This document shows positions 14,271 to 64,000 of a stretch of DNA of 64,000 nt, in pieces. Position numbers and translations under genes: made by a program. Every line of letters begins with the position of its first letter. Position 1 is the first letter of the stretch. The stretch is from positions 54,720-118,719 of IMG/VR virus record IMGVR_UViG_3300010354_000051. One strand, 5' to 3'. This DNA is from a virus. The notes below the pieces were generated by a model that was not told the DNA's origin, did not search any database, and was given only the letters and a program-made list of their open reading frames with translations.

Positions 14271-14698
14271 CAGTTGTAAGTAAAGTTGTCCATTACAAAG
14301 GTCATCTCAATGGTGCTCGGAGCACCACTGGTTCTGTCCACCGTACCGAAGTTCAGGGAGGTGAATTGAGCGTCGGGGATAATGATGGTTCTGGAACCTA
14401 GGGGTTGAGGGTCTTCGCCGCAGGTTACAGGAGTGATGGTAATGGTTACAAACTCACAACCACTTGACTTCCAGAAGTCGACCATATCGTAGTGAATACG
14501 GGGGTCGAAGGGGGTCATGATAGTGGCTTCTTGCAGAGTTTTTACACCCTTGAGCTGGAATACTCTTTGACGGATGCCGTCAGCGTATTGAGAGTTGGCT
14601 GCGGTGTCTCTGATGCCAGAAAAAGAAGTGAAGTAGTGACTCCAGGGTGAAGCCTGTACCCAGAATTGGGATTGAGTTGAAGGTCTAATCTGTAGCAT
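14270..14698 (-). CDS. Probable tail tube protein
   Basis: 142 residues, matching the usual size of contractile-tail tube subunits. The layout is typical: an N-terminal RPSTQSQFWVQASPW strand, a mid-region on a mixed effect (FDPRIHYDMVDFWKSSGCEF), and C-terminal strands ending STIEMTFVMDNFTYN. This alternating beta pattern resembles gp19-like tube proteins, though I see no signature that proves it. It lies next to the portal gene and has its own late-promoter-like element 31 bases upstream, as expected for a highly expressed subunit. The alternative is another small beta-rich virion protein. Confidence 0.5.
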   Translation of the reverse strand: MLQIRPSTQSQFWVQASPWSHYFTSFSGIRDTAANSQYADGIRQRVFQLKGVKTLQEATIMTPFDPRIHYDMVDFWKSSGCEFVTITITPVTCGEDPQPLGSRTIIIPDAQFTSLNFGTVDRTSGAPSTIEMTFVMDNFTYN

Positions 14699-14729
14699 GA
14701 TTTGTGAGAGGTCGGTCTACACCTACTCA

Positions 14730-14738
14730 GCTTTCACC
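14730..14738 (-). promoter_or_regulatory. Late-promoter-like motif GGTGAAAGC (leftward)
   Basis: GGTGAAAGC, then TGAG and TAG on the minus strand, sits 31 bases before the tail-tube-like ATG at 14698, between it and the portal gene. Confidence 0.5.
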
Positions 14739-14739
14739 A

Positions 14740-16674
14740 TTACATATAGTACGGGGCAAATGAACTCCAGTAACCCATTTCTTCCGTATCGATAACTACA
14801 CACTCCTTGTGAACCGCTACTCGGTTTAGTCTGAACGCCTTGGAATAAAGGCCGATTAGGAGAGAGACTTGGTCAGGAGTAAACCACTCATCTCTGAGGG
14901 CTTGAGACTCGTAGGTTGCCAAACTCATGTGGATTTTGTTTGCCATGTCGCAATGTTCGCCACAAGGACGGGGAATCATCTTGATTTCGTCCAGTAGACG
15001 TTTTGCAATGTAGATAATGTCGCCTGGAGAGGTGTACTCGTCCACGACAATACGGCTAGACTCAGCATCGGTGTTACTAATCCCAATAGCAACCCTCTCC
15101 CAACCAACTTCGTCAATACCCCCGTTATTAAACCGTTCGGAGATGAGCTTAGACACTCTGTCTCGGACAGATTTGTCCTTAAGATCTCCTTGCTCATCAA
15201 ACTCGGAAAAGTCGAGATTTTCATGGGAGACAGAGGCCTGATCGGACAGTAGTTTACCAATCGCTCTTTCTCCAACAATCGATTCGGAGGCTTCTGTAGT
15301 GCGCTGCTTAGTGGCTGGTTTTTCAGACATTCCTCCGGGCATTTCAGGAGGTTCGCCTTTAGCCAGCGAGGGAATTTCCAGCTTATCTCTGATCCAGTCC
15401 AGATCCGTTACATCAAAACCTAGCGCTTTAAGCTGAGACATTATCTGCACAACTTTTACCGGATCTTCTCTCTGCTCCAGGTCTTCAAAGTTACGACGAA
15501 GTCTGGGTACAGAAGCCCCAGGATAATTCAGTTCGACTATCCAGCGAATTAAGGTAGCATTGATCGTTTCATCAAGCTGTTCGCTAAATGCCTTGGCTTT
15601 GCGCATTCTGACGCTATCAGCTACGCTATCCCTAGCATAAGAACCTGTAGAGCCCGTATCCTGACCTACTGTCGATTCGCCATTAATCAAGAATGAGATC
15701 TGCTGATCGATATAGCTGATCATGTTCTCGTAAAGCTCAGGTCTGCCTGCTCCGCCTTCTAGCCACTTAACATCCATCTCATCAGGAATTACTATGGCTG
15801 TTTCTTGACCTAGTCGCTGCAAAGCAGAGAATAGAGAAGTCACTTCTTCGTCTGGAGTACCCAGGCTAAACTTACCAATAGCGGTAGGAGTGGTATGTTT
15901 GTCTGCGTATTGCAGCCAGAATGACATAAGAGTTCGGCGGAACTCGACCAACGAGTATAGTTGTCTACCTAGACCTGTACCATACGGGTCCATTGTATTA
16001 CTATAAGCCCAATGCCTATGGATTATCATAGAGCGTAGAGGTATAGCGACACCCTCTACCGGAGATTGAATAGTGACCACTCTCGGGCTCAGAGAGCCGT
16101 CCATATTTAGTACGAATTGAAAACGTCTCGGGTCTCTTAGTTTAATCTCCGCCGGAACGACATAATCTCCCTGCCTCATCCAACATATCTCGCCTACGCT
16201 AATACCCAAGATCAAACTTTCGCACATCCCTCGCACAAAAGAATTGAATCCGGAGTTAGATGAAGCTAGCATATCTCTACCACGGCTCTGCCTGGTATTG
16301 CTGCCCATGTGGTAAATAACTTGTCTGACAAACTCCGCTACCTCTTCATCCCTATCCGAACCGGAGACAGGAAAAACTTCCCATTTTCTTTGTATAATTT
16401 CCCCTACCAGTTTCTCCCAAGCTGAAATAACCGCATTGTCATTAAAAAGACGGGCGTAATGCTCAATTGCTCGAGCACCGCCCCCGCCTTCTTCGATGAG
16501 AATGTCATCTCTTCTGGGGAGGATCGTACCAGCTATGGCGCTGGGTAATCCACCCCAGGTATACGGGTCGGATTTATAGCCTGCCAGACTCCCCTGGTTA
16601 ACGCCTAATCCGTACAACCTGTCATTGTAACCAGTCTTTACGACTCGTTTAGGGGACTGTGCAGAGCCGACCAC
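14740..16674 (-). CDS. Portal protein (DUF935, Mu gp29-like)
   Basis: 644 residues with clear similarity to the DUF935/Mu gp29 portal family, which forms the dodecameric DNA channel at the capsid vertex. Support includes NAVISAWEKLVGEIIQRKWEV near residue 85, the central IHRHWAYSNTMDPYGTGLGRQ stretch, and the late FLINGESTVGQDTGSTGSYA region followed by the long KAFSEQLDETINATLIRWIV helix. The start is GTG at 16674. A late-promoter-like element lies 26 bases upstream, inside the preceding gene. The portal is on the opposite strand and about 21 kb from the protease and capsid genes, an unusual arrangement. The C-terminal ~170 residues are an extension of unknown role. Confidence 0.8.
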   Translation of the reverse strand: MVGSAQSPKRVVKTGYNDRLYGLGVNQGSLAGYKSDPYTWGGLPSAIAGTILPRRDDILIEEGGGGARAIEHYARLFNDNAVISAWEKLVGEIIQRKWEVFPVSGSDRDEEVAEFVRQVIYHMGSNTRQSRGRDMLASSNSGFNSFVRGMCESLILGISVGEICWMRQGDYVVPAEIKLRDPRRFQFVLNMDGSLSPRVVTIQSPVEGVAIPLRSMIIHRHWAYSNTMDPYGTGLGRQLYSLVEFRRTLMSFWLQYADKHTTPTAIGKFSLGTPDEEVTSLFSALQRLGQETAIVIPDEMDVKWLEGGAGRPELYENMISYIDQQISFLINGESTVGQDTGSTGSYARDSVADSVRMRKAKAFSEQLDETINATLIRWIVELNYPGASVPRLRRNFEDLEQREDPVKVVQIMSQLKALGFDVTDLDWIRDKLEIPSLAKGEPPEMPGGMSEKPATKQRTTEASESIVGERAIGKLLSDQASVSHENLDFSEFDEQGDLKDKSVRDRVSKLISERFNNGGIDEVGWERVAIGISNTDAESSRIVVDEYTSPGDIIYIAKRLLDEIKMIPRPCGEHCDMANKIHMSLATYESQALRDEWFTPDQVSLLIGLYSKAFRLNRVAVHKECVVIDTEEMGYWSSFAPYYM

Positions 16675-16919: not shown

Positions 16920-17635
16920 AGGAGGAGTTGCGGTGGTAGATACTGAGGCCAGATCTTTTTCCAATGTTCGAGATTTTCGGGAGCTAGACCGCTAGGCGGG
17001 TTGTTTTTGAACTCTCTCCGCAGGATGTAAATCCCGGACTGGACAAATTTCTGCCCTTGTTTATTATACACATTTTCAAAGTCTCTAAGACTTATGTGTG
17101 GATAAGCTTTTGCGAATTCGGCAAACAGTGGGGAGTTGACCGCCCGGAAGTTTTGTTTATCCCTTAGCAAACTGACCTGTTCGGCTATAATCCGCAAGTC
17201 CAGTCCTTCAGAAATAGCTTCATCGCTAGCAGATAGAAAATCGGCAGGGTCGATTTTGTCAACCAGATTAGCCATGTCTTGCCGGATGGATTTAATGGCC
17301 GATTCGGCGTCTCGGGCGTTTGGCCATCTGTCCAGACGTTGACCGCACCAAGATGTGGTCAGGAAGAAAGCCTGTAGTTCGCTTTCTCCGGCCGTTGCAG
17401 AAGCCCCTGCAGCCACCTTAGACTTGGCTATGAGGCCTTCATGGCTAGAAGTACAGACCCCGCCTGAAGTGCTCTTGTTAAAGTCTGAGAGTATTTTACT
17501 ATTCGGTGACGATTTTTGTTTCGTCGACCTCATCTCCTCCAGCTCTCGCTCGTGCCGATGGTTTTCTAGAGTTTTCCACCGGTCGTGCTGTATCAGGTCC
17601 TGAACTATCTGGCTCAGCAGGCTTTCGAGGCTCAT
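16817..17635 (-). CDS. Hypothetical protein with charged N-terminus
   Basis: 272 residues from ATG 17635 (MSLESLLSQIVQDLIQHDRW); a TTG at 17656 would add 7. The first 60 residues are strongly charged (ENHRHERELEEM). The remainder is helical and Trp-rich towards the end (LEHWKKIWPQYLPPQLLLW). It overlaps its upstream neighbour by about 137 bases and its downstream neighbour by about 100, which is a lot even for a phage. Location just before the portal suggests a DNA-packaging or head-assembly accessory, but no terminase motif (Walker A) is visible. Confidence 0.5.
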   Translation of the reverse strand: MSLESLLSQIVQDLIQHDRWKTLENHRHERELEEMRSTKQKSSPNSKILSDFNKSTSGGVCTSSHEGLIAKSKVAAGASATAGESELQAFFLTTSWCGQRLDRWPNARDAESAIKSIRQDMANLVDKIDPADFLSASDEAISEGLDLRIIAEQVSLLRDKQNFRAVNSPLFAEFAKAYPHISLRDFENVYNKQGQKFVQSGIYILRREFKNNPPSGLAPENLEHWKKIWPQYLPPQLLLWQKNLKSIETRMRMAQRAWKESISSQTPSTESM

Positions 17636-50723: not shown

Positions 50724-50724
50724 A

Positions 50725-50798
50725 CGTTCCAGGAGGGACTTGAACCCCCGACCGACCGCTTAGAAGGCGGATGCTCTATCCGGCTGAGCTACTGGAAC
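50725..50798 (-). tRNA. tRNA-Arg (anticodon TCT)
   Basis: Full cloverleaf on the minus strand: acceptor GTTCCAG paired with CTGGAAC, anticodon stem around loop CTTCTAA (anticodon TCT), and T loop TTCAAGT. CCA is not encoded. It would decode AGA, a codon that is frequent in this phage's A-rich genes. Confidence 0.92.
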
Positions 50799-50820
50799 AA
50801 AAGACAGTCGTGACTGTCAG

Positions 50821-50902
50821 TCGGAAAGACGAGACTCGAACTCGTATGCCTTTCGGCGGCGCATTTTGAGTGCGCTGTGTCTACCAATTCCACCACAATC
50901 CG
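50821..50902 (-). tRNA. tRNA-Leu (anticodon CAA), imperfect acceptor stem
   Basis: A class II tRNA with long variable arm. D region TGGTGGAATTGGTAGACAC is typical of Leu; anticodon loop CTCAAAA (CAA) sits on a perfect GCGCA/TGCGC stem; T arm ACGAG-TTCGAGT-CTCGT. The acceptor pairing CGGATTG/CTTTCCG has two T-T mismatches, so it may be decaying or need tolerance for them. Confidence 0.82.
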
Positions 50903-50908
50903 ATTAGG

Positions 50909-50981
50909 TAGGGGTCGCGAGGATCGAACTCGCCTGTGGCGGATTATGAGTCCGCTGCATTCACCAGATTGCTAGACCCCC
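50909..50981 (-). tRNA. tRNA with CAT anticodon (Met or Ile2)
   Basis: Cloverleaf with acceptor GGGGGTC/GACCCCT (one G-T pair), D arm GCA..TGC, anticodon stem GCGGA/TCCGC with loop CTCATAA, and T arm GCGAG-TTCGATC-CTCGC. The CAT anticodon means elongator Met, or Ile reading AUA if lysidine-modified. The initiator features (C-A mismatch at the end, three GC pairs) are absent. Confidence 0.88.
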
Positions 50982-54440: not shown

Positions 54441-56161
54441 CTTTTAGCAGCGGAGGTTTTTCTTATCCTAGCGCTTTTTTTGCTGGCCGTCTTCAATTCA
54501 GCCTTATACTTCTCCCAATTTTCCATGATTTTACCTGTTCCGGTATTAGTCCGGATCCATTTATTCAAGCCTCTGCTTGTCATCCCAAGGGTTTTACCCT
54601 CTGAAAAGATCTTTTCCTTCAAGGTTGGGGGTTTTTCAACAACGGTCTCGGGCTGGCTCAGTTCGGCCCAGACGCAGCGAGGAGTAAACTCAAGCTGTTT
54701 TTCGCTAGGCATAGAACTAATGATGTGGTTATCAAGGTCGGGACCGGCAGCGCATAACTTTTCAACACTGGACAATTCGGACTGAAGAGTGTTCAGGCGT
54801 TCGGACACCTTACCGGATTCGGTAGCGATCAAGGTGCGGATTGGTATGGAGAGCAGATGCTGACTAACAACCCTACTTAATTTCCATATCTTTTCAATTT
54901 GAGCAATAGCCGACTCGGAGTCTTTTGCCTTCCGTACAAGTTTTATAAACCTGTCCACATCGGACAATATTGTCTGGACTCCAGACAGCTTATCTATCTC
55001 AAGCTGTAGCGACTCTTTTAATTTTTTGTTCCGGCTAATAACATACTTGACCCGTTCCCCATACCAGGACCGAATTACTTCTCTCACCCCTGTCAGTACG
55101 GGTTTACCGTCAACTCCGACTGTCGTACAGTTAATATTATATATGTGCTTTAAGCCAGTAGACGATAGAAGAGCGGGCAAGATACAGCCCTTTATATCCT
55201 CTGGTGTTTTTGCCACTAGAACAATTCTAATTCCTTCCCGGCTTGAGTGGTCCGAGGCATCGACCAGATTCTGCAATCTGCCCGAATCAGCCAGGTCTCT
55301 GACTTTTTCCAGGAACTTTTCGGAAGAGCCGTAGGCTAGCCTGGTTATGATCAGGGCAGGGCGGGTTGATTTTTTCTTCCAGGCAAACTTCTCCTCTACT
55401 GACCATTCCCCCCAAACTTCCACCTGGCCTTTGCCATGGAGTATTACTTCAGACAACTTACAAGAGTTCTTGTCTACTCTGCCCCCCTGGGCAAACTCCG
55501 GGGGTGAAGAAAACTTGGACAGCAATTGCTTATCTGTTATATTTTTATTTTTTATAAAAGCCCTGGTCGCATTTACTACATCGCTGATTCGGTAAGGCAA
55601 GTGATAACAGGCGTAGCCAGAGGCTATGCCCTGAGCCCCTGTGATAAGTAGTGCGGGCAGCGAGGGAACCATCCTCACCGGTTCGGTTGTCGAATCGTCG
55701 TAGTTAGAGCGCCAGTCCCCCAGAGTCCTATCCAGATCGGCCAGGTAAACTCGCTCAACAAGGGTGGTTGATCTCACCTCTAAGTATCGTGCTGCTGCAG
55801 CCTCATCCTCACTAATGAGCTGACCTATGGCCGGACCGGTTTGTATACTTCCGCCCACATTGCCGTGAATGTCCGTAAGTGTGTATCTGGTTGAAGACTG
55901 CTGCCCGAGGTTAATAATAGTCCCGGAACATCCACCTTGAGGGTGATATTTACCCAGTACGTGCCCTTCTAGCCTGGAGACCTTGCAATACTGGGAGTTG
56001 CTGGTGAGGGATAGGTCTTTTAGGCCGAGTATAGCACGTCTCTGGGCAACCTTTAGCCCGTCGACTATGTCAGGCAAAGCCCGGTTATAAATGGCCGTGG
56101 TATAGGTTAAAAAATCCGAAACCAATTCGGATGTTAACGATACGGAAATACTCTCTGACAT
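54389..56161 (-). CDS. Type II DNA topoisomerase, A (DNA-cleaving) subunit
   Basis: 590 residues of a GyrA/ParC/T4 gp52-like subunit. DIVDGLKVAQRRAILGLKDL opens the winged-helix domain, KYHPQGGCSGTIINLGQ follows (YHPHGD-type loop), and the catalytic Tyr is Tyr126 in AAAARYLEVRST. ITGAQGIASGYACY is the usual tower-region motif. The gyrase C-terminal beta-pinwheel is lacking, as in T4 gp52 (442 aa) and other short forms; a basic tail replaces it (KKSARIRKTSAAKR). The ATPase subunit is not in the window. It acts in relieving or decatenating phage DNA. Confidence 0.88.
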   Translation of the reverse strand: MSESISVSLTSELVSDFLTYTTAIYNRALPDIVDGLKVAQRRAILGLKDLSLTSNSQYCKVSRLEGHVLGKYHPQGGCSGTIINLGQQSSTRYTLTDIHGNVGGSIQTGPAIGQLISEDEAAAARYLEVRSTTLVERVYLADLDRTLGDWRSNYDDSTTEPVRMVPSLPALLITGAQGIASGYACYHLPYRISDVVNATRAFIKNKNITDKQLLSKFSSPPEFAQGGRVDKNSCKLSEVILHGKGQVEVWGEWSVEEKFAWKKKSTRPALIITRLAYGSSEKFLEKVRDLADSGRLQNLVDASDHSSREGIRIVLVAKTPEDIKGCILPALLSSTGLKHIYNINCTTVGVDGKPVLTGVREVIRSWYGERVKYVISRNKKLKESLQLEIDKLSGVQTILSDVDRFIKLVRKAKDSESAIAQIEKIWKLSRVVSQHLLSIPIRTLIATESGKVSERLNTLQSELSSVEKLCAAGPDLDNHIISSMPSEKQLEFTPRCVWAELSQPETVVEKPPTLKEKIFSEGKTLGMTSRGLNKWIRTNTGTGKIMENWEKYKAELKTASKKSARIRKTSAAKRCQVESSTSPPTRRKRL

Positions 56162-56616: not shown

Positions 56617-56895
56617 ATGTCCAAATGCTCGGAGTGGTCTATGACCAGCCCCAACAGCCGGCCAAAACGCGAATACTTTGGCCCGGAAGAACCCTTCGTC
56701 CACTGTCACGACGACACGTACTATCGCCAGCAAAATACTGGCCGGTGCGGAGTTTGCGGCAAGCGGACTCACTACAAGTCCCTGTACGCAGCCGAACACT
56801 GCTGCAGCGTGGAATGCAGCAACGAACTCTGGTGCGACATTACCGAACGCATCGCAACATCAACCCGATCCGCTCTAAGAAAAAGAGGTAAGTGA
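56617..56895 (+). CDS. Small zinc-finger-like protein
   Basis: 92 residues. Cysteine pattern C-G-V-C-G (GRCGVCGKRTHYKS) and later EHCCSVECSNELWC could form one treble-clef-like zinc site. Such small fingers often bind nucleic acid. The start is uncertain (ATG 56617 or 56641). Three frames overlap this interval; I choose this one because its Cys spacing looks functional and its stop overlaps the start signals of the next gene (GAGGTAAG before ATG 56898). Confidence 0.6.
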   Translation: MSKCSEWSMTSPNSRPKREYFGPEEPFVHCHDDTYYRQQNTGRCGVCGKRTHYKSLYAAEHCCSVECSNELWCDITERIATSTRSALRKRGK

Positions 56896-56897
56896 CC

Positions 56898-58388
56898 ATG
56901 GCTAATCTAGAAGCGCTTTTAGTCGAAGCCAAAGACTCCACTACGAGCAGAGAAAGGCTCAGAGAGATTTGGGATATGACCAAGTCTTCTCGAGTTAGAA
57001 AAGCTATCAGCAGCAATCCTAATCTCGATGCGAAATTGCTGAAGTTGGCTTCGCGCCTCTACATCAAAGAGGTGGTTACCAACAGCTCGGTAGAACTGGT
57101 TCAGTTGTTTACCGAGGACGAATTCATGAAGAAGATCTACTATGCGTATAACGACCCAGCCAAATTCTTCTCCGAATTCAAGATCAGTAGACTACAGCAG
57201 GTCAGTAAAGTTGAGGATAGAGTGTGCCTGGCCAGAGCCATGCTCATTTCCCCTAAACTCAACAGTCCCACGTTGCTACTGATGATCAGTGGTGCGCTTA
57301 GTACACCTGAATTTACCAGGGAATTCAACATGAATCCTGAGGCGTTCGATCGAGCAAAAAAAATATGCTCGGAGAACGTAAAAGATTTTAATCTGGGCCA
57401 GATACTGAATTTCCAAGATCGCGGATTAATAGGGGAGGATAAAGCCCGAATCGGGGTTAAAAACTCTATAAAGCTGCACTCTTATCTGACCGATGGGACC
57501 TTTGTTAGCTTTTTCCAAAAGAGGTATGAGGGGTGGCTAAAAGGGTCGACCGCAGACTACTCCTATCTCCTGGAGTTTCTGCTGGCTGCTGCTTACAAAA
57601 ACTTGGAGAATCTGGCCAAGGTCAGCAAAAAGAACAAGTTTATTCTTGGAGATGATTGTCTAAAGCTTCTCTCTAATTTGTACAGAGACATGCTGTATGT
57701 AGAAGTAGCTGCAGGGAGAATAGGTTCAGGATCTAATTCTCCTTATTCTTGGATGCACTTTAGGAATCTGGGAAGCCAATCCAAATCCTACTCCCTGTCC
57801 GAGTTGATTTGGAAGATTATCTCGATACGGAACAAAATTACCAAAAGCAGTTCGGTAAAGGATTGGGATTTGGAGTCATTTTATTCCGATATTAAGATGA
57901 TTGGGTTTAACAAGGACATGGGTCCTTGGGGAGGGTATACAGTAATGACCAGTGTGGTAAACACCCCTGATAAATTAGAGGCTCTTTGTCAGAAGCTCAA
58001 CCTGCTTGATGACGAGTCATTAATTTTTTACCTGACAGCTAATCTGGTAAATAGAGAGTACTACTGTAGGAATTCTGGAGGAAGCGAGTATAGTAAGTTG
58101 GTTGACCGTATTAACTTACTCAATCAGCATTCTTTTGAAAAGAACTACGGGATTTTGTATAGGTATTCTAGCCTAGACTCTTATCCAACTTTCTGCTTAG
58201 ATAAGGCCCACCCGGCCATTAAAACCGGGTCGGAAAGGTACACTGTAAGGGGGCAAAAACCCCCCAAGTTGTTGCCTGTAGGCTCGGGCTTTATTAGCAA
58301 GGATGATTTGGGAGGCCTGGTCGGGTTAGAAACCGGACTTTCTTATCCAGAGTCAAAACGGCTGAAAGAAGTTCTATCTGAGCAATAG
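56898..58388 (+). CDS. Hypothetical helical repeat protein
   Basis: 496 residues from ATG 56898 (GAGGTAAG upstream). The N-terminal ~70 residues (LREIWDMTKSSRVRKAISSN; PNLDAKLLKLASRL) look like variant leucine-rich/HEAT-like helices of the 'LRV' type ('vr.ala.Np.lp...l..La'). The rest is a mostly helical globular protein with no recognised domain. Its last 15 bases overlap the convergent gene at 58374. Function unknown. Confidence 0.6.
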   Translation: MANLEALLVEAKDSTTSRERLREIWDMTKSSRVRKAISSNPNLDAKLLKLASRLYIKEVVTNSSVELVQLFTEDEFMKKIYYAYNDPAKFFSEFKISRLQQVSKVEDRVCLARAMLISPKLNSPTLLLMISGALSTPEFTREFNMNPEAFDRAKKICSENVKDFNLGQILNFQDRGLIGEDKARIGVKNSIKLHSYLTDGTFVSFFQKRYEGWLKGSTADYSYLLEFLLAAAYKNLENLAKVSKKNKFILGDDCLKLLSNLYRDMLYVEVAAGRIGSGSNSPYSWMHFRNLGSQSKSYSLSELIWKIISIRNKITKSSSVKDWDLESFYSDIKMIGFNKDMGPWGGYTVMTSVVNTPDKLEALCQKLNLLDDESLIFYLTANLVNREYYCRNSGGSEYSKLVDRINLLNQHSFEKNYGILYRYSSLDSYPTFCLDKAHPAIKTGSERYTVRGQKPPKLLPVGSGFISKDDLGGLVGLETGLSYPESKRLKEVLSEQ

Positions 58389-59483
58389 AGGCTGGTAAAA
58401 AGAGTCATACTCGCCCTTCTTGAGAGAGTTAAACCTTTCAAGAGGGGTTTTATGTTCGGCCTTCCAGGTAAAGAACACTGGAAGTCGATTCACCGTGCAG
58501 GTTTTTCTCAACAACTCTTTGGTCAGATTTTCTACTCCGCCCACCCGGCTCGCCCTCTCCATAAGAATCTTTACCACTTCAGTGTCCTTATACCCGTAGA
58601 TTTTTTTGCATACGTCCGCACAGTAATTTTCAGGGGAGGGCCTGGAAGCCTCTACAATGCGCTTGAAGCGGGTGGTCAGGGACAAGGACTCACGAGGCAG
58701 GTTCAAGGCTGCTTCCAGGCGATCACAGAGGCCGATCAGGAAGGATTTGCCATAAGCGGTTTCCAGAGTTTTACTGGGTTGGGATAGGAGGGAGACGAGG
58801 TCGTTCTCCGGCATGGCCTCGGCAAGCTTGTAACCTTTCTCCCACTGATCTAGTTTTTTTAGAACGGTGGAAGTTTTGGTCGGTCGGGTGTTGTTGGAGT
58901 TCCATCTCAGGCCCTGACTCAAGGCCTGGTTTACTCTTTGCTCAAGATCGGGCGGAGGAGCGGGAGCTGGGGATGAAGCCTGGCCGGAGATTATTCTGGC
59001 CGTAGACTGTGCTATACTTTTTACAGCCATGTGGGTATAGTCTTCTCCCTGGTGGTTTTCGCTATACTTAAGGACCGTGTCGCACATGGTCTGAACAGCC
59101 TGTACGGCAGAAGCCGTCTTATACGCTTCGAGTCTCCGATCTTCCTGCCTGCTGTGGTACTCGGCCAATAGCTGTATGCACTGAAGACTTCTCTGCTGGT
59201 CGCTAAGGTCATTCAGCAGGCTGAATCGGCGGTCGAGGTTTTTCTGGCAAGCGCTGAGCGTATCGGCCAATCTGCTCACGGCAAATTGCTGCGATTTAAC
59301 GGCCTGCAGCAGTTCCTGATCGGTCAGGAGGTGGGCTGGTATGGGCGTGGTCATCACCTGGCCCATGTATACCTCCCACTCCGGGCTAGAGACGACTTCC
59401 GGGCAGTGGAGAGGGTATTCGTTCATGGTTGTGTCTCGGCCCCCGAATTGTAGCAGGTCGAGGTGGGGAATTTTTTCGGCCAC
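58374..59483 (-). CDS. Hypothetical helical protein
   Basis: 369 residues from a GTG at 59483, or 350 from ATG 59426 (GGGGG lies 10-11 bases upstream of the latter). The N-terminal half is a long helical region (LLQAVKSQQFAVSRLADTLS; RSLQCIQLLAEYHSRQEDRR). A Pro-rich linker PAPAPPP is followed by a helical C-terminal half with VLKKLDQWEKGYKLAEAMPE. No known family. It lies just downstream of the repeat-rich region on the leftward side, so a link to replication or its control is a possibility only from position. Confidence 0.55.
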   Translation of the reverse strand: MAEKIPHLDLLQFGGRDTTMNEYPLHCPEVVSSPEWEVYMGQVMTTPIPAHLLTDQELLQAVKSQQFAVSRLADTLSACQKNLDRRFSLLNDLSDQQRSLQCIQLLAEYHSRQEDRRLEAYKTASAVQAVQTMCDTVLKYSENHQGEDYTHMAVKSIAQSTARIISGQASSPAPAPPPDLEQRVNQALSQGLRWNSNNTRPTKTSTVLKKLDQWEKGYKLAEAMPENDLVSLLSQPSKTLETAYGKSFLIGLCDRLEAALNLPRESLSLTTRFKRIVEASRPSPENYCADVCKKIYGYKDTEVVKILMERASRVGGVENLTKELLRKTCTVNRLPVFFTWKAEHKTPLERFNSLKKGEYDSFYQPLLLR

Positions 59484-59628: not shown

Positions 59629-60020
59629 CTTGCAGCGCAAGGGTTCTCATTTTTGGACAGGTTTGAGACAACGAGATTGACCCCTATTCGGCCCTGTTTC
59701 AGACTGTTTTAGGGGGGGCCTAACTGTAGTTTTGAACTGTGAAATTTATGGAAAAATCGCCCAAATTTGTGGTCGTTTTTGAAAACTACACTTAGGCCTA
59801 TTCGCTGAAACTCGTTGCGCTGCAAGGGATTACAAGGAATACCACAAAAATACCACAAAAACCGAAAATACAGTTAGGCCCTAGCTGCTTTTTCCATAAT
59901 TCCCTGAGATCGCTTCCAGCGCAAGGGATCTGAGCAAAAAACACCTAGGCCTGCGAAAATACAGTTAGGCCTATCGAAAATACAGTTAGGCCCCTAAACC
60001 CATTGCGCTGCAAGGGTTCT
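59629..60020. repeat. Four TTGC-3-GCAA boxes followed by GGGWTYT
   Basis: Boxes: CCTTGCAGCGCAAGGGTTCTC at ~59629, GTTGCGCTGCAAGGGATT at ~59814, TTCCAGCGCAAGGGATCTGA at ~59914, ATTGCGCTGCAAGGGTTCTC at ~60002. The 11-base core TTGCAGCGCAA appears in both orientations while the flank GGGttct stays in one orientation. Confidence 0.65.
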
Positions 60021-60164
60021 CAGAAACTACAGCCAGGCCCCCCTCGAACCAAATTTATGGCTGGAAAATACAGTTAGGCCCCCTGACCGCCATACTTTAT
60101 GGCTGGAAAATACAGTTAGGCCCCCTGACCGCCATACTTTATGGCTGGAAAATACAGTTAGGCC
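59864..60164 (+). repeat. Six copies of GAAAATACAGTTAGGCC
   Basis: Exact 17-base copies at 59864, 59955, 59976, 60064, 60106 and 60148. Related: an inverted GGCCTAACTGTAGTTTT at ~59718 and direct variants GAAAACTACACTTAGGCC at ~59781 and GAAACTACAGCCAGGCC at ~60022. The spacing varies: 91, 21, 88, 42, 42. Confidence 0.85.
60054..60164 (+). repeat. 42-base tandem repeat, 2.6 copies
   Basis: Units at 60054-60095 and 60096-60137 are identical and start TTTATGGCTG; a partial third runs 60138-60164. Each unit contains one 17-base GAAAATACAGTTAGGCC box. Confidence 0.85.
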
Positions 60165-60167
60165 TCT

Positions 60168-60425
60168 TCAAAAAACCTTGTGCCCTTCAAACAAAACCCT
60201 CAATCTGGCATGCTCGGCAAGCCCTTCTACCCCCATCGTGTTCAAAATATCAACAGCCTCTTTCTCATCCATCCACGACATAATTCCATATACCCCCCTC
60301 AGAGCCAAATAAAAAATCCTGTAGTTTCCTCCTACTGTCCGGGTTCCAGAGACCACAATTCGCACCCCGTATTCCACTTCTAAAGTGTTTCTTGTGCTCA
60401 GGGGAAGCCAGGGTTCTTCTAACAT
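60168..60425 (-). CDS. Small cluster protein, last of nine leftward genes
   Basis: 85 residues, MLEEPWLPLSTRNTLEVEYG. The middle is hydrophobic (GGNYRIFYLALRGVYGIMSW) and the end carries the cluster's shared motif as NTMGVEGLAEHARLRVLFEG ('G...l...l...vLF'). Its ATG overlaps the upstream stop (TAAATG). The unit runs toward the repeat region. Function unknown. Confidence 0.55.
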   Translation of the reverse strand: MLEEPWLPLSTRNTLEVEYGVRIVVSGTRTVGGNYRIFYLALRGVYGIMSWMDEKEAVDILNTMGVEGLAEHARLRVLFEGHKVF

Positions 60426-60622
60426 TTAAACAACACCGTTGTTCTTATAATTTCAACTGCTACTTCTGTCGTACAGCCGGATAGTTCGCTAATCCTCACT
60501 TTGTCCCATTCCCACCAGTCAAAGCAGAAAAAGAAATACTCCTCATCCCAACCGGAGTCTTCTATAACCTTACCTTCGTACAACAGGTCTTCGAACTTAG
60601 ATTTGTTGAATTTGCTAGCCAT
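60419..60622 (-). CDS. Small cluster protein
   Basis: 67 residues from ATG 60622, which overlaps the TAA of the preceding gene. It is acidic-aromatic (DEEYFFFCFDWWEWDKVRIS) with the short end-motif GCTTEVAVEIIRTTVLF, the cluster's G...v..Ei...vLF signature. No membrane segment. An upstream TTG/ATG would give a longer form but would run deep into the neighbour. Confidence 0.55.
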   Translation of the reverse strand: MASKFNKSKFEDLLYEGKVIEDSGWDEEYFFFCFDWWEWDKVRISELSGCTTEVAVEIIRTTVLFKC

Positions 60623-60623
60623 A

Positions 60624-60881
60624 TTAATCCGTCTCAAACAGAAATTGATATAGAAGGGTTTGAGCGCAGCATTCTGCCGATCCGGCTCTAAGCATTTCCT
60701 CATACATGTAATAAACAGTGCTATATAGACATGTAGAAGTTGCTAAGTGGGTTATTTTTACACAACAAACACGCGAGTAGCTTATCTCAGCACGTATACC
60801 AACTTCAGCTAAAGCCGGAACTAGCTCTACTTTCAAGATCTGACAGAGTTTTTCAAACTCGCCATCGTACTGCGACTGCAT
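60624..60881 (-). CDS. Small cluster protein
   Basis: 85 residues from ATG 60881, just after the previous stop (a GTG at 60923 would add 14). It has VELVPALAEVGIRAEISYSR and Cys-rich VCCVKITHLATSTCLYSTVY, ending GSAECCAQTLLYQFLFETD. This matches the cluster's C-terminal 'G...l...ll..Fl F' pattern. Role unknown. Confidence 0.55.
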   Translation of the reverse strand: MQSQYDGEFEKLCQILKVELVPALAEVGIRAEISYSRVCCVKITHLATSTCLYSTVYYMYEEMLRAGSAECCAQTLLYQFLFETD

Positions 60882-60883
60882 GC

Positions 60884-61222
60884 TCAAAAGCTCATCTCCA
60901 AAATCACTACTTGCAGAATACACTTCTCTTGAGTCAGATCATGTCTTCTTTCAGCAAGATATATCAAGTCAGACTTTGGGAGTATGCAGAGCTGAGGTGA
61001 AAAAGTTAGCACGGTCCAAGCCTCACACAAAATATGGTCGATAGATTTATTTTCGTAAGCCTTTCTATCCAGCACTTTTACGGGAGTTGTTGAGTGATAG
61101 TATGTACTATCACCCTCTAACCAAAAGATAAAATGGTCGCTGGTCACACCAAGCCTCAGGCCGTATTTTTTCTGGGCTGCTGACCTGAGCCTACGGGTTC
61201 TGAAAAGTCGGTCGAAGATCAC
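60884..61222 (-). CDS. Small cluster protein
   Basis: 112 residues from GTG 61222, overlapping the upstream TGA (GTGA); a TTG at 61240 is possible. The N-terminal half is basic (MIFDRLFRTRRLRSAAQKKY), followed by a strand pair (GVTSDHFIFWLEGDSTYYHS) and the motif SIDHILCEAWTVLTFSPQLC. The latter two elements recur in the gene at 62217 as LLFWIDGKG and NEVHTLLVFSPA. Paralogue of that family. No transmembrane helix. Confidence 0.6.
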   Translation of the reverse strand: MIFDRLFRTRRLRSAAQKKYGLRLGVTSDHFIFWLEGDSTYYHSTTPVKVLDRKAYENKSIDHILCEAWTVLTFSPQLCILPKSDLIYLAERRHDLTQEKCILQVVILEMSF

Positions 61223-61716
61223 AGGGCCAGAGCTAGACAAAGCAAGCCTAGCACGGAAACCAGGCAGTAGAAGGGCAGGTGGTTGCGAGGCATGATCACC
61301 CGGTAAATGTTACTACCCTGATTTCCAAAAACCACTTCGAGCAACAAATCGTTATAAACAGCATTGACTCCTCGCCTCCTAACAGACCTGATCAGTTTCT
61401 TCCTATCCTCCTGGTATACCGGATTCTCCCTATCTGTTATAAAAACACTATGTCGGCAATCTGTCAGCTTCAAGTTATGTTTTCTGAATCTCCACCCTAA
61501 GAGAATTAGATAAATAGAAGGCCTGTTACCTAAAGAGTACAGTAATGACTCACGGCATATACTAATAAAGAGTATTACTAACATTAAGAAAAGTTTGATC
61601 AGGTTGTAGGCTATAATACCGAACGCTATAAGAGTAGAAACTAATACATATAAAAGGCCGACTAAAAAAAGTACAAAGAGGATTAGTAACCCTATAGGGG
61701 TGAGAAATTCAAGCAT
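61219..61716 (-). CDS. Small cluster protein with three membrane segments
   Basis: 165 residues. One or two hydrophobic helices occupy residues 5-55 (LLILFVLFLVGLLYVLVSTL), then a soluble centre with SVFITDRENPVYQ and RRRGVNAVYNDLLLEVVFG (the shared motif), then a C-terminal membrane helix (CLVSVLGLLCLALAL). The soluble part probably faces the cytoplasm if both ends are in the membrane. Paralogue of its neighbours by the shared RG(V)xAV...E/D..vF motif. Confidence 0.6.
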   Translation of the reverse strand: MLEFLTPIGLLILFVLFLVGLLYVLVSTLIAFGIIAYNLIKLFLMLVILFISICRESLLYSLGNRPSIYLILLGWRFRKHNLKLTDCRHSVFITDRENPVYQEDRKKLIRSVRRRGVNAVYNDLLLEVVFGNQGSNIYRVIMPRNHLPFYCLVSVLGLLCLALAL

Positions 61717-61722
61717 GGCTAG

Positions 61723-62220
61723 TTACCTCACCTGTTTAATAATTGTTTTCACTACATAAAAGGCATTTGCAGTGTGTAAGAGCATTGCTAGTGCGAATAC
61801 GCAGGCTAGTGCTAAGTATTTAGCATGGATAAGATTCCATGAGTTGAGTGAAACCATCGTCAAATTAAATATGGCAAACCAGACTTTGTCGTAATCCAAA
61901 TAGCCTGTAATCCCTGCGTTTGAGTAGACAAGAAACAGCTCGTAGTAGTCGATTTCTTCCGTACCCGCATCAAACTCCAGGCAGGTTTTTATCTCGGCTA
62001 GTAATCCGCTAGCACCTGACGTTTGTATTTTCCTCCTCACAAACTGGTCATCCAGTCGGAACTGCCTGTTTACACCATGTGTTCTATAAAATGCAAGTGA
62101 AGATTTGAACTTGTTTGGGCAGTACCAAAAACAATAAGTGTTGCTGACTAAGGCCTTATACATCCTAACTCGGCCAAACCACCTAAAATAAGCATAAAGC
62201 AGCAGGTCTCTAACTATCAT
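61723..62220 (-). CDS. Small cluster protein, membrane-anchored
   Basis: 165 residues from ATG 62220, which overlaps the upstream TGA (ATGA); a longer upstream start is unlikely. LLLYAYFRWFGRVRMYKALV, CFWYCPNKFKSS and LLAEIKTCLEFDAGTEEID parallel the gene at 63253 (VVYAYFRFVYGVRIARM, YMWYEPNRLIS, ASEITTLLHFELDVG). Two or three membrane helices follow (LACVFALAMLLHTANAFYVV). Clear paralogue of the 63253 gene. Confidence 0.7.
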   Translation of the reverse strand: MIVRDLLLYAYFRWFGRVRMYKALVSNTYCFWYCPNKFKSSLAFYRTHGVNRQFRLDDQFVRRKIQTSGASGLLAEIKTCLEFDAGTEEIDYYELFLVYSNAGITGYLDYDKVWFAIFNLTMVSLNSWNLIHAKYLALACVFALAMLLHTANAFYVVKTIIKQVR

Positions 62221-62723
62221 TTCTTTTTCAGAATAAAGCCCGTACAAAATGCTACCGCAAACGCGATTCCCCACCCTATGCAAAGAGATACCAAAGCCCT
62301 GATGAAAGTTTCCCAACCAAAAATAATAAACAAAGCACCCATCAATAATCCAATCCACATTGAATCAAACATTAACGGGTAAGATTGAACAATTTTTATA
62401 TCCGGGCTCACTACCTCATGCTCTTCAAAGACAGCCGGAGAGAACACCAGCAGAGTGTGAACTTCGTTCAGAACAGAATTCAACCCGCGACTTTTTGCAG
62501 CCGCTTTGAGGCCCGCTAATCTAACTGATCTATACCCGATGCAATTTCTAATTCTTTCTCTTATATTCTGTCCTCTCTTCCTCCCTTTGCCATCAATCCA
62601 AAACAGAAGATTCTTCTCCCCATCTACAATTATTTCCCTTACACGAACTTTCTTACCCAGCATAAAGAGAGCGGACCGGATAAAAAGAATTTCCGGCAGT
62701 AGCGGTGAAGAGTTAGTTGACAT
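62217..62723 (-). CDS. Small cluster protein, membrane-anchored
   Basis: 168 residues from ATG 62723. An N-terminal helix precedes KKVRVREIIVDG, LLFWIDGKGRKRGQN, a basic stretch, the motif SRGLNSVLNEVHTLLVFSPA, and two C-terminal membrane helices (MWIGLLMGALFIIFGW; WGIAFAVAFCTGFILKKK). Same order as the neighbours. The stop overlaps the next gene's ATG. Function unknown. Confidence 0.65.
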   Translation of the reverse strand: MSTNSSPLLPEILFIRSALFMLGKKVRVREIIVDGEKNLLFWIDGKGRKRGQNIRERIRNCIGYRSVRLAGLKAAAKSRGLNSVLNEVHTLLVFSPAVFEEHEVVSPDIKIVQSYPLMFDSMWIGLLMGALFIIFGWETFIRALVSLCIGWGIAFAVAFCTGFILKKK

Positions 62724-63015
62724 TTTCAAAAGATAGTCGAAGGATAATGCACTGAAGTAGGTAATCTAACAAAACTTCACGACCTTTTTCGTTTAAAATG
62801 CGGACCAAATCATTATGGTCAAGTTTGTTTAACCATTTGCGTATACCAAACTTCTTCCAGAGGGAATAGTGATCGTATTCATCCAGATCACAAACAGTAC
62901 GATTGATATAAGATATACGACGGTATTCTTCGCAATGTACAAACACTTCAAACGCTGCTATCTCCCCTCTCTCTGTTAAATAATAAGACAAGTTCGTTTC
63001 TTCGTTAATCATCAT
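62713..63015 (-). CDS. Small cluster protein
   Basis: 100 residues from ATG 63015, with CCGGAG as Shine-Dalgarno; an in-frame ATG follows at the next codon. It is acidic and Tyr-rich, with EIAAFEVFVHCEEYRRISYI and DEYDHYSLWKKFGIRKWLNK. The end (EKGREVLLDYLLQCIILRLSFE) carries a version of the cluster motif. No clear membrane helix. Overlaps the next gene by 11 bases. Confidence 0.55.
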   Translation of the reverse strand: MMINEETNLSYYLTERGEIAAFEVFVHCEEYRRISYINRTVCDLDEYDHYSLWKKFGIRKWLNKLDHNDLVRILNEKGREVLLDYLLQCIILRLSFENVN

Positions 63016-63204
63016 TCCCACTCCGGGATAAGAAAAGCAGAGACGGCCTTGCTGCCCATCAGCTCAGTGCCGACTAACAAAGCATGATACGCACTGAACG
63101 CCATCACCTCGATACACTTGAATGATGTACAGACTCGGTAGGGTAGAAGCTCGGCCATCAGAGCTAACCAAGAACAACCCAATCATTCTACCACAATTCG
63201 GACC

Positions 63205-63247
63205 CTGGGGCGGGCGGAGTCCGCCCCAGCCCCTCCCGTTAGGGAGG
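63205..63247 (-). terminator. Paired GC-rich hairpins downstream of the 63253 gene
   Basis: CTGGGGCGG-GCGGAGT-CCGCCCCAG (63205-63229) and CCTCCC-GTTA-GGGAGG (63232-63247) stand just after the leftward gene's stop. There is no T-run, so factor-independent termination is unsure. They may also protect the mRNA end. The rest of 63022-63252 holds no gene I can support. Confidence 0.5.
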
Positions 63248-63252
63248 ACAAG

Positions 63253-63774
63253 TCAAATGTACCAGGGATGCCTAAATCTTAACTGTACTATTATACGAAC
63301 AATCGTTTTCGCCCCGTACACATAGGCTAAGAACCCTAGTGGCAATATAAGACCAGGGACAACATATATTACAGGTATTACTGAGATTACACCTATACAC
63401 CTTAGTAATACCGACCATACCTGGCCAATTTCGTAAAGGTTAATTCTAGCCTTTAAAGTCATAACAGTAGTTTTCCTGTTGACGGAACCAACATCAAGCT
63501 CAAAATGCAAAAGGGTCGTTATTTCACTTGCCACAGCTTTAATCCCCCTTTCTCTTACCTGTTCCCAAAAGCTTATCTCACCAGTAACATAATAAGCGAA
63601 ATCACCTTCTCCCTCAAGGGATCTCTCTGCGCTGATTAGCCTGTTAGGCTCGTACCACATATATAAGACATTAGTATCATACCCTTCCCCTACCATACGG
63701 GCTATCCTAACACCATAAACGAATCTGAAGTAAGCATAGACAACCATCAGTTTAACAAGCTTCATGTCAGCCAA
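63253..63774 (-). CDS. Cluster protein with C-terminal membrane segments
   Basis: About 173 residues from TTG 63774 (170 from ATG 63765); GGAGG lies 3 bases before the TTG and 12 before the ATG, so the start is open. It has VVYAYFRFVYGVRIARM, YMWYEPNRLIS and RERGIKAVASEITTLLHFEL, then two or three membrane helices (IPVIYVVPGLILPLGFLAYV). It is the paralogue of the gene at 61723 and the first of the leftward cluster. A TATAAT box lies at 63876-63881 on the same strand. Confidence 0.65.
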   Translation of the reverse strand: MADMKLVKLMVVYAYFRFVYGVRIARMVGEGYDTNVLYMWYEPNRLISAERSLEGEGDFAYYVTGEISFWEQVRERGIKAVASEITTLLHFELDVGSVNRKTTVMTLKARINLYEIGQVWSVLLRCIGVISVIPVIYVVPGLILPLGFLAYVYGAKTIVRIIVQLRFRHPWYI

Positions 63775-63881: not shown

Positions 63882-63901
63882 CCACGGCCATCTCCCCCGG
63901 C

Positions 63902-63924
63902 GGCATGGACTCCGAGTCCATGCC
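63902..63924. repeat. Near-perfect palindrome GGCATGGACTC-C-GAGTCCATGCC
   Basis: 11-base arms around one base, in a locally GC-rich end segment (63880-64000) unlike the rest of the window. Possible operator or structured RNA. I see no gene in 63775-64000. Confidence 0.5.
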
Positions 63925-64000
63925 CCATGGCGAAGTCGTCCGGATCATGCTGTAACTTGGCCGGCCACTAAGCTCGGCCTGACCAGACGGGCGGGGGGCC

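Follow-up and report, generated by a model that had tools for sequence, protein, structure and literature searches.

The right end of the virus record IMGVR_UViG_3300010354_000051 (118,719 bases, labelled G000 in our comparisons) raises a simple question: what is a row of nine small genes of no recognised family doing in a phage? We analysed the last 64,000 nucleotides of the record, positions 54,720 to 118,719, hereafter called the window; coordinates without a prefix refer to it. Nine leftward open reading frames (ORFs), g1 to g9, fill positions 60168-63774 end to end. Our comparisons indicate that they encode diverged copies of one small domain and that relatives of the virus carry arrays of their own at the same place. 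With about even confidence, we propose that this is a multigene-family locus of phages resembling the cyanophage S-TIM5, acting as a repertoire of small host-directed binding proteins. The TerL protein of the window virus is 54.5% identical to that of S-TIM5 (Aurunvirus) and, because of this kinship, we infer a cyanobacterium as its host.

Organisation of the nine-gene array

All nine genes lie on the minus strand. The first to be read, g1 (63253..63774, 173 aa), starts with TTG or alternatively with an ATG at 63765, and carries the array domain followed by C-terminal membrane helices. It is followed by g2 (62713..63015, 100 aa), which is weakly similar to g9, by g3 (62217..62723, 168 aa), where two C-terminal membrane helices follow the array domain, and by g4 (61723..62220, 165 aa), a paralogue of g1 in which the domain is followed by a C-terminal membrane helix. 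In g5 (61219..61716, 165 aa) the domain is placed between an N-terminal membrane stretch and a C-terminal helix. The last four genes are g6 (60884..61222, 112 aa), whose GTG start overlaps the g5 stop, g7 (60624..60881, 85 aa), g8 (60419..60622, 67 aa) and g9 (60168..60425, 85 aa), the member chosen for modelling.

Same-strand ORFs of at least 60 aa account for 93% of the array stretch; in 200 dinucleotide shuffles this coverage averaged 17% and never exceeded 51%. The original prediction described the nine leftward genes as tightly coupled. The nine same-strand ORFs are indeed present and seven of the eight junctions range from an 11-nucleotide overlap to a 6-nucleotide gap, but g1 and g2 are separated by 237 nucleotides, and the coupling of the array is therefore incomplete. 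A promoter scan gave no signal above chance, an Rfam search no match, and GTGGTANAATG, a motif preceding both g1 and g2, showed no enrichment once one mismatch was allowed.

A block common to the nine proteins

How similar are the nine proteins to one another? The paralogy expected among them is significant for g1/g4 (E about 1e-6), the only clear case in pairwise comparison, whereas g1/g3 and g2/g9 are borderline and most other pairs are non-significant when taken alone. The common signal emerges when the proteins are considered together. Indeed, a search for the best gapless block of 22 columns, with no constraint on its position, found a block common to all nine proteins, close to where the soluble part ends, that scored 438. 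The highest score among 200 shuffles of the soluble cores was 50, and the highest among 200 sets, each of nine other small genes from the same contig, was 91, so that none of the 200 sets exceeded the observed value. Furthermore, when each protein was left out in turn it pointed to the same place, with z values from 2.6 to 7.5 and with 0 to 7 of 300 shuffles reaching the value. The z values were 7.5 for g1, 6.1 for g3, 5.7 for g4, 5.5 for g9, 5.2 for g5, 3.4 for g2, 2.9 for g6, 2.7 for g7 and 2.6 for g8, the weakest.

These results argue for a module shared by the nine proteins, strongly for g1, g3, g4, g5 and g9 and moderately for g2, g6, g7 and g8. The common core that had been proposed, running from an aromatic and basic start to a C-terminal motif, is retained in part: the C-terminal block is present in all nine proteins, but the YAYFR..RVRM start is found mainly in g1 and g4. 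No shared block appeared in two negative controls, namely eight small genes at the corresponding place of S-TIM5 (z -0.8) and 12 small genes of the relative L115 (z 1.5).

Arrays at the same locus in relatives

We sampled 80 loci with related TerL genes from viral contigs, and compared arrays wherever there was sufficient sequence upstream of a conserved gene for a 369-aa protein, the downstream neighbour of the array. Window and relatives together gave 91 array genes, L105 being left out. In the relatives, the corresponding place upstream of the 369-aa gene is occupied by arrays of 1 to 19 small genes in the same orientation: array A (16 genes called in G004, 19 in its near strain L108), array B (G015, 16 genes), array C (G020, 7 genes), array D (L100, 13 genes), array E (L101, 7 genes) and array F (L096, 3 genes, the array being cut by the contig end), to which L104 and L105 add one array-type gene each. 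In G034 the contig ends too near the 369-aa gene for the presence of an array to be judged. Homologues of the 369-aa protein occur in 4 of 49 related records, and those of a neighbouring 498-aa protein, which served as the synteny anchor, in 39 loci.

When the block search was applied to these arrays, A, B and D stood far above their own shuffles and C by less, and E gave a z of 14.9. In arrays B and E the best block is an N-terminal LC..YGL motif instead of the C-terminal one, and the 16 genes of B and the seven of E include matching genes in nearly unchanged order. The local gene amplification that had been suspected in the window is upheld by these arrays, and extended by the gain, loss and chimera described below.

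At the 3′ edge of the relatives' arrays, we also observed a conserved small protein with a DIHTAL..VVKPIA motif (L092:4170-4358, L096:13972-14139, L104:12958-13137, L105:13066-13245 and L108:13137-13352), which was not seen in the window.

Are all arrays one family?

An iterated profile started from one array B gene collected 28 genes, all from arrays B, D, E and H, and none of 1128 decoys. The next in rank, below its threshold, were c7, a gene of array F and c6, and window g6 appeared at a non-significant E of 0.44. Seeds from array A collected A genes only, as three clusters, while the seed g1 collected g4 only and the seed g3 no other gene. Scored in the relatives' genes against decoys, the window block gave p values of 0.00017 in F (L096), 0.00072 in B and 0.0021 in A, and was not clear in C, D and E (p 0.08-0.09). 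Finally, a profile of 20 array genes (A5) matched at the array place only, in G015, G020, G051 and G052, apart from three marginal matches inside proteins of about 1270 aa, which were taken as chance. At the level of sequence comparison, paralogy within the arrays and homology of B, D, E and H are established. A single family across all arrays has place, motifs and fold in its favour, and is supported rather than proven.

The original prediction recognised no named family, and the searches agree for the genes submitted to them. Pfam gave no accepted family for the window nine and the 32 array members of A3; one stray match, to PF09859 (E 0.0084), was not accepted. PHROGs returned weak matches only for the window nine (best E 0.019) and none at E 0.01 for A3. 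Searches of 50,697 phage records by tblastn and blastn with g3, g1, one B gene, one A gene and the whole array A stretch gave no match. No relative emerged from scans of viral contigs in which either g1 or the 369-aa protein was the sole query, the scan with one array A gene found its two known contigs only, and g3 had no match in the 49 relatives. A literature search at the level of abstract openings turned up no published description of such arrays. Variable host-interaction loci are already known; a phage locus built of one diversifying family, as far as we found, appears new.

Predicted fold of array proteins

AlphaFold models cover two of the 91 array genes, g9 of the window and b1 of array B. 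The b1 model has a predicted local distance difference test score (pLDDT) of 89.3 and the element order alpha-beta-beta-beta-alpha. The same order is found in the g9 model (pLDDT 76.6, predicted template modelling score 0.68), which was built on an alignment of 11 rows, of which four came from other arrays and three from L096, and is not fully independent of b1; the four rows of other arrays mostly have no residues opposite the middle strands of g9. With one window member modelled, the shared element order fits the idea of a common fold. Together with the block statistics, the two models bear out the description of the nine genes as diverged paralogues of one small domain.

Turnover of array genes in a strain pair

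The near strains L108 and L109 (the G004 contig) are the sole pair available for following turnover. The ratio of nonsynonymous to synonymous substitution rates (dN/dS) was 0.83 for 11 array pairs and 0.15 for 16 flanking genes (Fisher p < 1e-15), and the array value was 0.55 with three more diverged pairs added (14 pairs). The 11 pairs were drawn from the 19 array genes of L108, the other eight being below 83% identity, partnerless or chimeric; the flanking set comprised 16 of 18 matched genes, two short ORFs in the repeat stretch being left out. For several array genes, the partner in the other strain is missing or has been replaced. Moreover, one gene (L108:15173-15475) is a clear chimera joined from two paralogues: its bases 3-244 match the gene at 17198-17527 with 82% identity, and its bases 253-303 match the gene at 14608-14817 with 94% identity. 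The lengths of all five array indels are divisible by three, and not one stop has arisen where 4.9 were expected (P 0.007). These counts show that the array genes are translated, with reading frames that stay intact.

Flanking repeats and neighbouring genes

Between the array and the 369-aa gene (58374..59483, minus strand) lie nine copies of GGCCTAACTGTANTTT (59717..60164), with 0.12 expected by chance. The 369-aa gene corresponds by position to S-TIM5 gp003, and its convergent neighbour, the 498-aa gene (56892..58388, plus strand), has gp004 as its counterpart. S-TIM5 thus resembles the window virus in both neighbours and in having repeats upstream of gp003, but differs in that the genes at the place of the array share no block. 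In the window virus, GGCCTAACTGTANTTT also occurs twice, with one mismatch per copy, beside the start of a paralogue that the 369-aa gene has at about G000:31346 (L004:11293-11368). Several relatives have different, phage-specific repeats at the same place, often with a spacing near 21 bases, and none were found there in L100 and L092. We infer that the 369-aa protein family putatively binds such repeats.

On its other side the array abuts the remnant of a DUF2201 (VWA-like) gene (63887..63955, plus strand), read by hand as the last 22 codons and the stop of an N-terminally truncated gene. The search that recovered such remnants in relatives gave no match in G000 and missed the one in the window. 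In relatives, the inverted remnant, the 3′ end of a DUF2201 gene (metallopeptidase and VWA-like domains), is longer (L101:16013-16372) and is also found at the ends of G015, G020, L100 and L108. The first 127 bases of G015 are the exact reverse complement of its last 127, and L108 ends with 127 bases common to G009. The contigs seem to stop at this piece because it is repeated. As for the gene itself, S-TIM5 gp056 (L136:2964-4112), annotated as an HNH endonuclease, matches Pfam DUF2201_N and DUF2201 and adjoins a preceding MoxR-type ATPase gene.

Two observations concern the rest of the record. Three tRNA genes (Arg, Leu, Met) stand in a row at 50724-50981 of the window, and a ribonucleotide reductase gene of G000 (L003:18456-20000) contains, as judged by eye, an apparent intein end (HNFYIV..GVLVHNC).

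Possible role of the array

Stretches of variable small genes are common in phages, and usually consist of unrelated genes. Here the entire stretch has the appearance of a single family with a single fold, whose members turn over through recombination beside conserved neighbours. How could such a locus work? Each of the packed genes would supply one small alpha-beta-beta-beta-alpha domain, with some members of the window array fixed to the membrane. The proteins would be made together in infection as a set of binders to host proteins, and their surfaces would shift as the targets in the host shift. Those targets would most likely be defence systems, or further host proteins that the phage needs to block. 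Members would be added, deleted and reshuffled as paralogues recombine. A host-interaction or anti-defence role is our best guess. Anti-defence is the first candidate because the small size, the overlapping genes, the strain-to-strain variability and the absence from S-TIM5 all fit it.

Several results weigh against a repertoire of host-directed binders. Structure searches with the b1 and g9 models stayed at noise level (best Z 4.5 and 3.3), and hhalign comparison of the window array profile with array B was non-significant (E 0.081 and 0.29). S-TIM5 has no array of block-sharing genes at the locus. The array dN/dS of 0.83 is not above 1 (difference from 1: P 0.39), and relaxed constraint is therefore as good an explanation as selection for change. 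Moreover, no strain close to the window phage was found, and the fast evolution, gain and loss, and chimera were seen in a related array only.

The array could instead be a by-product of duplication-prone DNA beside repeats, with paralogues copied and then decaying under weak constraint, and roleless as a set. A dN/dS near 1 would suit such decay, as would the position of the array, flanked by repeats on one side and by a duplicated gene piece on the other. However, the reading frames are intact, one shared block is retained at great divergence, and arrays are found again in several distinct contigs, so that we regard this origin as unlikely.

Another function is suggested by the membrane helices that hydropathy predicts in g1, g3, g4 and g5. 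The array may be a superinfection-exclusion or cell-envelope set, whose membrane-placed domains would exclude other phages or alter the envelope and be diversified by competition between phages, a process that would favour change as well. The proteins had been characterised as often membrane-anchored, which holds for four of the nine in the window array but for none of the 82 genes in the arrays of relatives. The module is thus apparently brought to the membrane in the window array, unlike in the other arrays. Anchoring does not characterise the locus as such, and an exclusion or envelope role seems to us distinctly unlikely.

The element order of both models is also that of double-stranded RNA-binding domains (dsRBD) and HicA toxins, and HicA chains are among the weak structure matches (Z 2.9-4.2), which would be consistent with small nucleic-acid or toxin-like factors that bind or cut RNA. 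These Z values are at noise level, however, and Pfam found no dsRBD or HicA match in the window nine or the 32 array members. HicA mRNA interferases have a conserved catalytic histidine, whereas the invariant or near-invariant columns of alignment A5 (20 genes) are M1, C12 and Y15, with no histidine. The missing histidine speaks against HicA. Neither HicA nor the dsRBD, CsgE or any other entry of the structure lists was adopted as the family, the matches being at noise level, and this assessment covers the families on those lists. We consider the prospects of an RNA-directed role poor. Lastly, that the nine are small ORFs of separate origin that share a hydrophobic motif by chance, as the lack of significant similarity in most single pairs might suggest, is highly improbable, since shuffles, other contig genes, S-TIM5 and another relative yield no such block and the similarity of g1 and g4 is significant.

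What would follow if the members of the array do act on the host? The comparison of arrays between strains would show directly which protein surfaces change. It would also supply, ready-made, a set of anti-defence candidates for cyanobacterial phages, for which few such proteins are known.

Comparison with known systems

Among known phage proteins that block host functions, T7 gp1.2, the inhibitor of the host dGTPase, is likewise a small protein and is weakly matched by both models (Z 4.4 and 2.4, noise level). An annotated dGTPase inhibitor of another phage heads the viral structure list for g9 (E 0.047). However, gp1.2 has no sequence match to the array proteins, and we take it to be a single gene rather than an array. 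The anti-CRISPR protein AcrIIA4 resembles g9 as a small phage-derived binding protein with a weak structure match (Z 2.6), but this match is at noise level and no sequence relation to g9 is shown.

For the locus as a whole, the systems that we presume to be comparable are the multigene-family arrays of African swine fever virus and the gene accordions of poxviruses. These concern unrelated viruses and proteins, whereas here the host is bacterial and the role putative. The likeness lies in tandem, diverged paralogues that are gained and lost between strains. We therefore suggest, tentatively and with less than even confidence, that the array may be a bacteriophage repertoire locus, a counterpart of the multigene families that large eukaryotic viruses carry, in which one fold set in a row is recombined, deleted and diversified strain by strain, and which would give each phage a different panel of host-protein blockers.

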